From Methanospirillaceae archaeon (GTDB lineage: Archaea > Halobacteriota > Methanomicrobia > Methanomicrobiales > Methanospirillaceae), in assembly GCA_016926505.1 (NCBI GenBank), contig JAFGOM010000037.1, forward strand, positions 1 to 36,056: 36,056 nucleotides of DNA, given 5' to 3'. The translations under genes and the position numbers were made by a program. Under the pieces are notes generated by a model. The model worked only from the letters and a program-made list of their open reading frames with translations. It had not been told where the DNA came from and made no database searches. Below, in pieces: positions 12,349 through 15,891 of this stretch (the stretch's first letter is position 1; every line of letters starts with the position of its first letter).

Positions 12349-13626
12349 ATGTTTATTGGTATCGATGACACCGATTCTGCTGACGGGATGTGTACAACCT
12401 ATCTTGGAGCAGTTCTTGCGGGAAAACTAAAGGAATCCGGAGCCCGTATCAGGCGTGCCTACCTTATCAGGTTAAACCCGACTGTACCCTATAAAACCCG
12501 TGGAAACGCCGCCGTCTGTATCGAGGCAGATGGCTGTGCTGATGAGATATTTGCCATTACCTGTGCTCTTATCGAACAGTACGCAGTGCTAGGGGATGAA
12601 AAGACAAATCCTGGTGTGGTGATAACCGGGAAGAGAGGACCCGCAGAGTGGTATAAACGGTGTCTCACCGGTTACGTGACCATAGACGAGGTATACTCTG
12701 TTATCCAGAGAGAAGGCATGATATTTCGTGGCTGGAAGAACTGCAGGGGCCTTATCGGAGCTTGTGCTGCAGTATCAGCAGTTCTTGCGGATTGTACCTA
12801 CGAACTGATTGCATACCGCCAGGAAGAACGATTCGGAAACCCCCGCAACGTTACTGCATCAAGTGTTTTTTCTGCTGAAGCTGCCACCTATCCTGCAACA
12901 TGGGACTCAGTGGATCACGAAAATCAGGTTGTTGTCTGCGTACCCCATACCCCGGATCCGGTTCTTTTTGGCATCAGGGGCGAAAGTCCCTTCTCAGTTG
13001 CCCGCGCTACCGGACTCATTGCTTGTGAACCGACAGGGATGAGGCAGATATGGTGCACAAACCAGGGTACCGATGCCCACCTTATCATCCAAAAACCCGG
13101 CCAGCCACTTACAGAAGGGTCATCCTACCTTCTTCCCGGAACGGTGAATTCATATCCAAAGTCAGGCAGGGGAGGTCATGTTACGTTTTCGTTACTGCTC
13201 GCGGTGTATCCACAAGAACGAAAAGAAGAATCGATCACCTGTATCGCCTTTGAACCGACCAGGGGATTTCGGAATATCATTCGATCCCTGCATCCCGGAG
13301 ACAGGATACTGGTTGCCGGAAGTTTCCTGAAAGAAACCATAAACCTCGAGAAAATTGCTCTAGTCCTGCCCGCACCTGCTGTCAGAACAGAGGCACCGGT
13401 TTGCCCTGCCTGTAACAAACAGATGACCAGTGCAGGTACCGGAAAGGGATACAAATGCCGGAGGTGCCGGTACCGGACCAGAGATCCGGTAATAAAAGAA
13501 GAGAAAAGGCAGATCACTCCCGGATGGTATGAGGTACCACCGATCGCAAGAAGACACCTGGCACGCCCGCTTATCCGGGGATCCCCATCGGTACCAGGCG
13601 AGTTCCTGTCCTCCGAAACCTCTTAA
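12349..13626 (+). CDS. tiaS: tRNA(Ile2) 2-agmatinylcytidine synthetase TiaS
   Basis: A 425-residue TiaS, which uses ATP and agmatine to convert C34 of tRNA-Ile2 (CAU) into agmatidine so that it reads AUA. The N-terminus MFIGIDDTDSADGMCTTYLG carries the Asp-rich motif of the catalytic part. An OB-fold anticodon-binding segment is at about 297-327 (CIAFEPTRGFRNIIRSLHPG), and a C-terminal zinc ribbon with CPAC...CRRC is at 352-373. Length is normal. No ribosome site precedes the ATG, which suits a leaderless transcript. It begins a plus-strand cluster with dys, pyrF and a box C/D sRNA. The essential codon-decoding role and conserved architecture make the call secure. Confidence 0.95.
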   Translation: MFIGIDDTDSADGMCTTYLGAVLAGKLKESGARIRRAYLIRLNPTVPYKTRGNAAVCIEADGCADEIFAITCALIEQYAVLGDEKTNPGVVITGKRGPAEWYKRCLTGYVTIDEVYSVIQREGMIFRGWKNCRGLIGACAAVSAVLADCTYELIAYRQEERFGNPRNVTASSVFSAEAATYPATWDSVDHENQVVVCVPHTPDPVLFGIRGESPFSVARATGLIACEPTGMRQIWCTNQGTDAHLIIQKPGQPLTEGSSYLLPGTVNSYPKSGRGGHVTFSLLLAVYPQERKEESITCIAFEPTRGFRNIIRSLHPGDRILVAGSFLKETINLEKIALVLPAPAVRTEAPVCPACNKQMTSAGTGKGYKCRRCRYRTRDPVIKEEKRQITPGWYEVPPIARRHLARPLIRGSPSVPGEFLSSETS

Positions 13627-13854: not shown

Positions 13855-14781
13855 ATGGAATGTGGTGATCCCGTACAGCAGGTGCACCTGACATCCGGGA
13901 TGAGTGTTGACGCTCTCATCAGGGCAATCGGGAATGCCGGGGCTTACAACGGAGGAGCAATGGCTGAAGCGGTCAGAATATACGAGACCATGCTAGAAGA
14001 TTCCGGTGCGACACGGTTTTTAGGCCTTGCAGGAGCGATGGTTCCCGCGGGAATGGGAGGGATCATCAGTGACCTCATCAGGGACGGATATGTTGATGTG
14101 TTAGTCTCAACCGGAGCAAACCTGACCCACGATATCATCGAGGCAATCGGATGTCACCATTACAAGGGTTCATCCTCCGGTAATGATGTAGAACTTCGTC
14201 AGAGTGAAATAAACCGCATATACGACATATACCTCCCAAATGATGCGTTTTCTGTATTTGAAGAGTTTCTTCAGGGGTCATTTGGGAAACTAAAACCGGG
14301 AAGTGTTATCTCGATATCAGATCTCCTCAGGCATCTGGGCGGGGATTTAAAGAGCGGCATATTGCATACCGCGGTCAGAAAGGGGATCCCAATCTTTTGT
14401 CCTGCAATCCAGGACTCTATGATCGGTCTGCAGTTCTGGCTCTATAACCAGACCCACCGGGTAACCGTTGATGCATTTGCTGACATGAAGGGGATAATCG
14501 ATATCTGTTTTGATGCAGAACGGGCCGGAGCCCTCCTTATCGGCGGTGGTGTTCCGAAAAACTTCATCCTTCAGAGCATGCTCATGACAGAGAACGGTTT
14601 TTCGTATGCAGTTCAGCTGACAGGAGACAGGCCTGATCTCGGTGGGCTTTCCGGTGCAACCCTTGATGAAGCACGTTCATGGGGGAAAGTTGAAGAAGAC
14701 GCAGAGACGGTAACCGTGTACGGGGATGCGACGATCACCCTTCCACTCCTGGTTGCGGCTGTTCGAGGGCGGATTTCATGA
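13855..14781 (+). CDS. dys: Deoxyhypusine synthase
   Basis: A 308-residue deoxyhypusine synthase. It transfers the aminobutyl group of spermidine, using NAD, to a lysine of archaeal translation factor aIF5A. Visible signatures: LGLAGAMVPAGMGGIISDLI (about 56-75), STGANLTHDIIEAIG (about 85-99), the GGGVPKNF loop (K235) and DEARSWGKVEED, whose K278 aligns with the lysine that forms the enzyme-substrate imine in the human enzyme. Family length is about 310-340, so it is complete. Start ATG 13855 gives the usual N-terminus before SGMSVDALI. The pyrF start overlaps its stop by 4 bases (ATGA), so the two are translated together. Confidence 0.95.
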   Translation: MECGDPVQQVHLTSGMSVDALIRAIGNAGAYNGGAMAEAVRIYETMLEDSGATRFLGLAGAMVPAGMGGIISDLIRDGYVDVLVSTGANLTHDIIEAIGCHHYKGSSSGNDVELRQSEINRIYDIYLPNDAFSVFEEFLQGSFGKLKPGSVISISDLLRHLGGDLKSGILHTAVRKGIPIFCPAIQDSMIGLQFWLYNQTHRVTVDAFADMKGIIDICFDAERAGALLIGGGVPKNFILQSMLMTENGFSYAVQLTGDRPDLGGLSGATLDEARSWGKVEEDAETVTVYGDATITLPLLVAAVRGRIS

Positions 14782-15413
14782 GTGATCTCATCCTTGCCCT
14801 TGATCTGACCGATGCAGCAAAAGCGGTACACCTTGCTGAGATAACCGCTCCATACCTGAATGCTATTAAAATCGGTTACCCGCTTATCCTTTCGGCAGGA
14901 CCCGGGATCGTTACGGAACTTTTAACTTTCGGACTGCCGCTCATTGCAGACTTTAAGGTTGCAGATATCCCGAATACCAATCGTCTCATAACAGAGCAGG
15001 TTTTTCATGCAGGTTTCTCTGCGATCATATCACATGGCTTTACCGGCTCTGACTCGGTTACTGCCTGTGTACATACCGCTCACGAAGCAGGAGGAGAATG
15101 CTATGTGGTATGCGAGATGAGCCATCCGGGAGCAGAAGAATTTTTTTATCAGGGGACTGCCGAGCGGATCGCATCTCTTGCAACACAGTGCGGGGCAGAC
15201 GGGATCATCGCTCCTGCAACCAGACCGGAGAGGACCCGCATTCTGCGCGAGATTGTCGGAGAGAAAAAGATCCTCTCACCCGGAGTCGGGGCACAGGGAG
15301 GTGATCCAAAAGCAATCTCTGGACTTGTCGATGGGATTATTGTCGGGAGAAGCATATATGAAGCACAAGACCCGGTATCAGCTGCAGCACAGTATGCAGA
15401 GGCCTGCCGATGA
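14778..15413 (+). CDS. pyrF: Orotidine 5'-phosphate decarboxylase
   Basis: A 211-residue OMP decarboxylase, making UMP in de novo pyrimidine synthesis. TIM-barrel catalytic residues are visible: D9 in LALD, K31 in KIGYP, and the D58-x-K60-x-x-D63 charge network in ADFKVADI. Phosphate-binding residues appear in LSPGVGAQGG and GIIVGRSIY. The archaeal short form has this length. It overlaps dys by ATGA. The last four codons and the stop are also the 5' stem and box C of a box C/D sRNA. Confidence 0.96.
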   Translation: MSDLILALDLTDAAKAVHLAEITAPYLNAIKIGYPLILSAGPGIVTELLTFGLPLIADFKVADIPNTNRLITEQVFHAGFSAIISHGFTGSDSVTACVHTAHEAGGECYVVCEMSHPGAEEFFYQGTAERIASLATQCGADGIIAPATRPERTRILREIVGEKKILSPGVGAQGGDPKAISGLVDGIIVGRSIYEAQDPVSAAAQYAEACR

Positions 15414-15468
15414 TGAGATGAATCGAACTGAACCGTGATGAACCCTATGAGTCAGCTGAGGCAGGCCT
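15400..15468 (+). ncRNA. Box C/D guide sRNA overlapping the 3' end of pyrF
   Basis: All four boxes are present in order: C ATGATGA (15410-15416), D' CTGA (15428-15431), C' GTGATGA (15435-15441), D CTGA (15456-15459). A perfect 9-bp terminal stem closes them: AGGCCTGCC (15400-15408) with GGCAGGCCT (15460-15468). The D' guide is 11 bases (15417-15427), the D guide 14 bases (15442-15455), and the D'-C' spacer 3 bases, all as in archaeal sRNAs that direct fibrillarin 2'-O-methylation. The last ten bases of the D guide, TATGAGTCAG, complement CUGACUCAUA, the sequence of a typical CAU-anticodon arm. By the box D plus 5 rule the target is the C paired to G15451 (position 32 in tRNA numbering). Box C contains the pyrF stop codon. 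The target is inferred, the RNA call is not. Confidence 0.9.
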
Positions 15469-15528
15469 AGTGGCTCAAATGCTTTCTCTCTCGATGGCTT
15501 TTTTAGATAACCACACAAACACCCTTGC

Positions 15529-15891
15529 ATGATATGGAGTGAAGAGCAGAAAGAACTCTGCAGCAGATACTCGTCTCCAGCTGATGTTCCGGAAGCAGAA
15601 CGGAAGTACAAGTGTCATACCTGCCACATGGTTGTCGAAAGTATCCCCTGCCCGGTCTGTGGTGAGAAGAACCTGGAGATCATGTGTCCCCTTGATCACT
15701 GCAACTGTTCACACGATATCACAACGAATATTGAGTACTGTCCCCTCTGTGGAGAGGCTGTCTGCCCACAATGCGGATCCCATGATGTGATCCAGATAAG
15801 CAGGGTCACCGGCTACCTGCAGGATGTTTCCGGCTGGAATGCAGGAAAACAGCAGGAACTCAAAGATCGGAAACGATATACCGTGGCATGA
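15529..15891 (+). CDS. Stand-alone zinc-ribbon protein with NrdD-type glycyl-radical C-terminus
   Basis: A 120-residue protein. The last 30 residues, ISRVTGYLQDVSGWNAGKQQ and what follows, match the C-terminal end of class III anaerobic ribonucleotide reductase (NrdD), where the glycine of the RxxGYL motif carries the glycyl radical (here G95). Preceding CxxC pairs C71/C74 and C79/C82 match the NrdD zinc site; further pairs C29/C32 and C41/C44 make extra ribbons. The 500-residue catalytic barrel of NrdD is absent, and no frame nearby supplies it. It may be an autonomous glycyl-radical or zinc module, or a nucleic-acid-binding protein; function is unknown. A TTTTTAGATA at 15500-15509 is the likely TATA box for a leaderless start. 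It overlaps cbiZ by ATGA. Confidence 0.8.
   Translation: MIWSEEQKELCSRYSSPADVPEAERKYKCHTCHMVVESIPCPVCGEKNLEIMCPLDHCNCSHDITTNIEYCPLCGEAVCPQCGSHDVIQISRVTGYLQDVSGWNAGKQQELKDRKRYTVA

Follow-up and report, generated by a model that had tools for sequence, protein, structure and literature searches.

The window (the whole stretch of DNA analysed here, 36,056 nt) contains at positions 15400-15468, on the plus strand, what we take, with a probability of about 0.88, to be a complete box C/D guide sRNA of the sR41/sR-tMet family that targets the unspliced precursor of elongator tRNA-Met. The family and its target RNA are known. What is new is the predicted form of the guide, which across the order Methanomicrobiales is one to three bases longer on the side of box D, the side from which the methylation site is measured.

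A box C/D sRNA gene at the end of pyrF

The sRNA is closed by a terminal stem of nine perfect pairs between a 5' arm, AGGCCTGCC (15400-15408), and a 3' arm, GGCAGGCCT (15460-15468). Between the two arms lie, in order and all on the plus strand, box C (AUGAUGA, ATGATGA in the DNA; 15410-15416), an 11-nt D' spacer (15417-15427), box D' (CUGA, DNA CTGA; 15428-15431), box C' (UGAUGA, DNA TGATGA; 15436-15441), a 14-nt D spacer (15442-15455) and box D (CUGA, DNA CTGA; 15456-15459). Together with G15409, box C forms a kink-turn of exact geometry, with the stem followed by a three-base bulge and GAUGA on one strand, and CUGA running directly into the stem on the other. The pattern GCC-[NRU]-GAUGA / CUGA-GGC is also seen in relatives, where the pairing of the terminal stem is kept and its sequence is variable. 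Four ordered boxes (with RUGAUGA as the box C consensus), a kink-turn and a closing stem are the features by which archaeal box C/D sRNAs are recognized. Moreover, 400 windows simulated to match the first-order composition of the real one yielded the four boxes in order 0 times, against one occurrence in the real window, and the folding z-score of the sRNA is -4.0. Fibrillarin is encoded in the same genome (PF01269, 165 bits); its gene (G000:C35:40211-40747) and a tRNA-Gln(CUG) gene (G000:C35:40056-40128) stand on opposite strands, with about 80 bases between them.

The host gene of the sRNA is pyrF (14778-15413, plus strand), encoding orotidine-5'-phosphate decarboxylase (NCBIfam NF010386, 246 bits against a cut-off of 208; Pfam PF00215), whose stop codon TGA (15411-15413) provides bases 2-4 of box C. 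A preliminary description of this DNA had proposed a C/D sRNA built into the end of pyrF, and the complete set of boxes, the 9-bp stem, the position of the stop codon and the simulations bear this out; it also calls the guide lengths right, which is true of the 11-nt D' spacer and not of the 14-nt D spacer. A run of six T (15499-15504, plus strand) is, judging from the sequence, a possible end of a pyrF-sRNA transcript. This T-run, and the overlap with the end of pyrF, could also be taken to mean that the region is no RNA gene and that a feature of pyrF, in its coding sequence or terminator, only looks like a C/D RNA. We find this hardly credible, given that in Methanosarcina the same RNA lies up to about 230 nt past pyrF, that in Methanothrix, Methanobrevibacter and Methanomassiliicoccales it is away from this gene altogether, and that the guide core, which lies beyond the coding part, is conserved. 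Genes of this kind commonly overlap the 3' end of an mRNA (PMC7994747). C/D sRNA genes overlapping the 3' ends of open reading frames are likewise known from Tripp et al. (2017), as reported in PMC7994747; compared with the genes as related there, the sRNA of the window is distinguished by a partner, pyrF, that is retained across several orders or classes.

Indeed, pyrF adjoins the sRNA in most of the Methanomicrobiales checked, in Methanosarcinaceae (up to about 230 nt downstream in Methanosarcina), in Methanoperedens and in several other families; the loci away from pyrF extend to Thermoplasmata. Upstream in the same cluster of the window are a tiaS-like gene for tRNA-Ile2 2-agmatinylcytidine synthetase (12349-13626, plus strand) and, between it and pyrF, the deoxyhypusine synthase gene dhs (13855-14781, plus strand; NF002630, 497 bits). 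The tiaS-like product matches Pfam TiaS_FLD, TiaS_TCKD and Zn_ribbon_TiaS, all above cut-off, and scores 370 bits against NCBIfam NF040849, under the cut-off of 600. Gene order dhs-pyrF-sRNA is the wider unit, present also at Methanosarcina-type loci; the unit tiaS-dhs-pyrF-sRNA was found in Methanomicrobiales only, so that the neighbourhood with TiaS pointed out in the preliminary description is real and confined to this order. On the other side of the sRNA, positions 15529-15891 encode a 120-aa protein whose match to anaerobic ribonucleotide reductase is limited to the C-terminal zinc-binding end, and this gene is conserved beside the sRNA in Methanomicrobiales.

Pairing with the intron-containing elongator tRNA-Met

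Three tRNAs with a CAU anticodon were found in the genome. The elongator tRNA-Met gene (G000:C109:47171-47277, locus L028) carries an intron after position 37, with the exon/intron sequence CCAGACUCAUA/GGGUUG. A C/D guide is a stretch of about 10-12 nt beside D or D' that is complementary to a cellular RNA, and the D guide of the window (15442-15453) pairs with GACUCAUA/GGGU of elongator pre-tRNA-Met over 12 uninterrupted bp (-21.5 kcal/mol). The duplex includes a ten-base core, CCCUAUGAGU (15443-15452), conserved in relatives. It covers positions 30-37 of pre-tRNA-Met and the first four intron bases, spanning the junction of exon 1 and intron, and ends two bases before box D, leaving the two D-spacer bases nearest that box (AG) unpaired with tRNA-Met. 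When the guide was aligned to every other tRNA of the genome, no match exceeded 8 contiguous bases; tRNA-Ile2 and the initiator tRNA, each with 6 contiguous bp, were rejected as targets. Of the ten bases beside box D that had earlier been matched to the CAU arm of elongator Met or Ile2, the CAU-arm target stands, for elongator tRNA-Met only, while the two bases nearest the box drop out and the pairing extends four bases into the intron instead.

Since the duplex crosses the splice junction, the sRNA must act on the unspliced precursor. In haloarchaea, the unspliced precursor of tRNA-Met is likewise used, by an sRNA that guides Cm34 and forms a duplex reaching into the intron (PMC2584109), and a Cm34 guide sRNA for intron-containing tRNA-Met is also reported in PMC4033218. 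The former paper puts forward a 23S rRNA position as the target of the Pyrococcus sRNA named sR41, which raises the question of whether rRNA is the target of the sRNA, or whether its two guides hit different RNAs, the tRNA match being secondary. We consider this very improbable. The D guide has no match longer than 7 bases to the rRNA of three relatives, searched in place of the organism's own rRNA, which is absent from the assembly; the H69 region around the proposed 23S site is unmatched by it; and loss of the guide tracks loss of the tRNA intron (see below).

The D' guide is probably an unused orphan, as is typical of tRNA-targeting sRNAs (PMC7994747). Its spacer is unconserved among relatives (mean pairwise identity 0.35), has no conserved target in the rRNA of three relatives, and finds its best match, 8 bp, in tRNA T-loops. 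The TTCGATTC T-loop of tRNA-Gln, -His, -Asn and -Arg, which would point to A58, was rejected as its target because the spacer is not conserved.

A search by DNA similarity recovered the sRNA in 41 of the 101 genomes searched, and its distribution was also drawn from a pattern search (394 genomes of the phylum) and a scan of named genomes; the counts based on the core were obtained with its sequence fixed in advance, and are to be read accordingly. The genome is related to Methanomicrobiales, with relatives that include Methanolinea, Methanoculleus, Methanogenium and Methanoregulaceae, and the guide recurs in most relatives. The same guide occurs in Methanosarcina, Methanoperedens, Methanothrix, Methanobrevibacter, Methanosphaera, Methanomassiliicoccales and Thermoplasmata, the ten-base core being common to many archaeal groups. 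Stray occurrences of CCCTATGAGTCTGGCGCCCTGA in three genomes and single bacterial matches (Prevotella, Bifidobacterium, Dictyobacter) were excluded as unlikely to be the same RNA. At three loci (L201, L203 and L206), the guide core is intact, box D has decayed (CCGA, UUGA) and C' reads UGACGA; these copies are possibly on the way to loss. At L237, L239, L241, L280 and similar loci of Methanobrevibacter and Methanosphaera, the CCCTATGAG guide apparently stands between C and D', and it may have moved between the halves of the sRNA.

There is good evidence, from comparison of the genomes, that guide and target co-vary: lineages without the intron, or without its GGG start, are mostly without the guide. 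In Methanomicrobiales, GGG starts nearly all elongator tRNA-Met introns. In genus g29 the tRNA-Met is intronless and the guide is missing at pyrF, and in genus g12, in G008 (g9) and in G037 (g11) the introns begin AAG or AATG and the guide was not found. Loss of the boxes in relatives that keep pyrF, which had been set down earlier as speaking against the sRNA, thus does occur in some genera, and mainly where the tRNA intron is lost or changed, which supports pre-tRNA-Met as the true partner. The exceptions are g5 (for example G018, G047 and G510) and G020, in which the GGG intron is kept with no recognisable guide; here either loss of the modification came first, or the guide has relocated and diverged. 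A relaxed pattern search for relocated or compensatory guides in g5, g9, g11 and g12 yielded no convincing candidate. The state of g5 indicates that some lineages can do without the guide.

At the gathering score, Rfam gave no match in the window. In a permissive search, the best family was sR41 (RF01126; 44.6 bits, E 8.7e-10), short of its gathering score of 54, and sR-tMet (RF02163) scored 22.8 against a gathering score of 50. Members of other groups with the canonical 12-nt spacer pass the sR41 cut-off, and the copy of the window falls below it because of two inserted bases. sR41, first described in Pyrococcus, shares the CCCUAUGAG guide upstream of box D; the sRNA of the window differs from it in these two extra bases and in overlapping pyrF. 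sR-tMet, the haloarchaeal Cm34 guide of elongator tRNA-Met, has the same core and target RNA, pairs across the exon/intron junction and is a separate gene outside the intron, as here, but the spacer of its Rfam consensus is 12 nt, compared with 14 nt in the window, where the two bases are inserted beside box D. Of the characters of the sR41/sR-tMet families, the sRNA of the window has the conserved D guide CCCUAUGAG(U) to pre-tRNA-Met and lacks the 12-nt spacer that puts C34 at box D plus five. The shared core, target and position at pyrF argue for common descent.

The lengthened D spacer and the methylated base

In the scan of named genomes, the spacer between C' and D was exactly 12 nt in 97 of 120 loci. 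Other lengths belonged to Methanomicrobiales, to probable chance matches and to a single further archaeal locus (13 nt). This locus, L344, has a Thermoplasmata-like architecture and is the sole lengthened spacer in an archaeal locus unlinked to pyrF. In Methanomicrobiales, the D spacer is 13, 14 or 15 nt long (124 matches) and the extra bases are all beside box D: the distance from C' to the core is constant at 1 nt, while the linker from the core to box D, which is 1 nt outside this order, is 3 nt in 108 of the 124, 2 nt in 10 and 4 nt in 6, and never 1 nt. In the window, this linker is CAG (15453-15455). Linker base 2 pairs with tRNA position 29 in only 11 of 124 cases, and base 3 with position 28 in 8 of 114.

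The plus-five rule counts from box D to the methylation site, and no exception is stated in the literature searched (including PMC2584109). With a 12-nt spacer, box D plus five is C34; with linkers of 2, 3 and 4 nt, it becomes U33, C32 and A31, respectively. In the window, the fifth guide base from box D (15451) faces C32 and the seventh (15449) faces the wobble base C34. Three different plus-five bases among relatives fit poorly with one conserved function, and the C' distance and the core stay fixed while the linker on the D side takes 2, 3 or 4 nt. We read this as a ten-base duplex centred on C34 that is conserved, with the box-D side loosened, and predict C34 as the methylated base, a prediction to which we give an even chance. 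That the site is not set by the distance from box D, with C34 methylated 6-8 bases away and the position measured from the C' side or from the duplex ends, is a tentative proposal that we rate somewhat below even.

The same RNA could act on the same target and methylate the base at box D plus five, which would mostly be C32, and U33 or A31 with the 2- and 4-base linkers; Methanomicrobiales would then have retargeted an ancestral Cm34 guide. This is the main alternative and a serious one, yet we lean against it. Taken literally, the rule does give C32 here, but linkers of 2, 3 and 4 nt inside one order would shift the site among three bases. Nine pairs would still form at guide positions 3-11 from box D with a linker of three bases, though the linker bases expected to pair near box D are unpaired, and the far end of the core, facing the GGG of the intron, is conserved although it would lie partly outside that working duplex. 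Several archaeal tRNAs are known to carry Cm32, and no enzyme is assigned to it there (PMC4033218). In the same genome, the guide in the tRNA-Trp intron retains 12-nt spacers that place plus five on C34. The methylation of C32 put forward in the preliminary description follows mechanically from the rule and is doubtful, C34 being the base that homologues of this guide select in every other archaeal group seen.

The tRNA-Trp guide just mentioned (Rfam sR3) is, like the sRNA of the window, one that acts on a precursor tRNA before splicing, at C34 of the anticodon loop; it differs in being encoded in the tRNA intron and in its spacers. As in other euryarchaea, the tRNA-Trp gene of this genome (G000:C92:57155-57312, L070) has a complete C/D sRNA within its intron; the two spacers of this sRNA are each 12 nt long. 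These normal spacers indicate that the lengthening is not general to the organism.

Pairing that is conserved while the catalytic register drifts would also be expected if methylation had been lost in the order and the sRNA were now an antisense chaperone, keeping the exon/intron junction of pre-tRNA-Met open and timing its splicing; selection would then act on base pairing only, and the distance to box D would drift. Moreover, the guide would compete with a precursor helix between C32-A35 (CUCA) and UGAG near the 3' end of the intron, and UGAG is present there in nearly all tRNA-Met introns compared. We nevertheless regard this as unlikely: boxes C, D and C' and the terminal stem are all retained, as a full RNP needs, and relatives without the guide retain their introns, indicating that it is not required for splicing.

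Proposed action and implications

In our preferred reading, the sRNA would be cotranscribed with pyrF, forming the 3' end of its message, and L7Ae would bind the kink-turn, the sRNA being released by trimming around it to the 9-bp stem. Nop5 and fibrillarin would then assemble and the D guide would pair with unspliced elongator tRNA-Met, upon which L7Ae, Nop5 and fibrillarin would, as expected from the family, 2'-O-methylate one anticodon-loop ribose before splicing. Release of the precursor would be followed by splicing, guide binding and the CUCA:UGAG splicing helix presumably competing with each other. Cm34 in the Met-type CAU anticodon would favour the reading of AUG, not AUA. The linker on the box-D side has grown from 1 to 2-4 nt in Methanomicrobiales; should C34 have remained the target, the site would be fixed by the distance to C' or by where the ten-base duplex ends.

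TiaS in tRNA-Ile2 and the sRNA in tRNA-Met would both modify the same wobble base, in two CAU tRNAs that need to be kept separate, a link in function that is suggestive only. The gene of a predicted wobble-base guide is tied to pyrF across several orders and, in Methanomicrobiales, to tiaS as well. The plus-five rule underlies nearly every predicted C/D methylation site, and the guides of this order call it into question. Together, the natural series of 1-, 2-, 3- and 4-base linkers on the same core and the relatives without the guide make a direct test of the rule possible.
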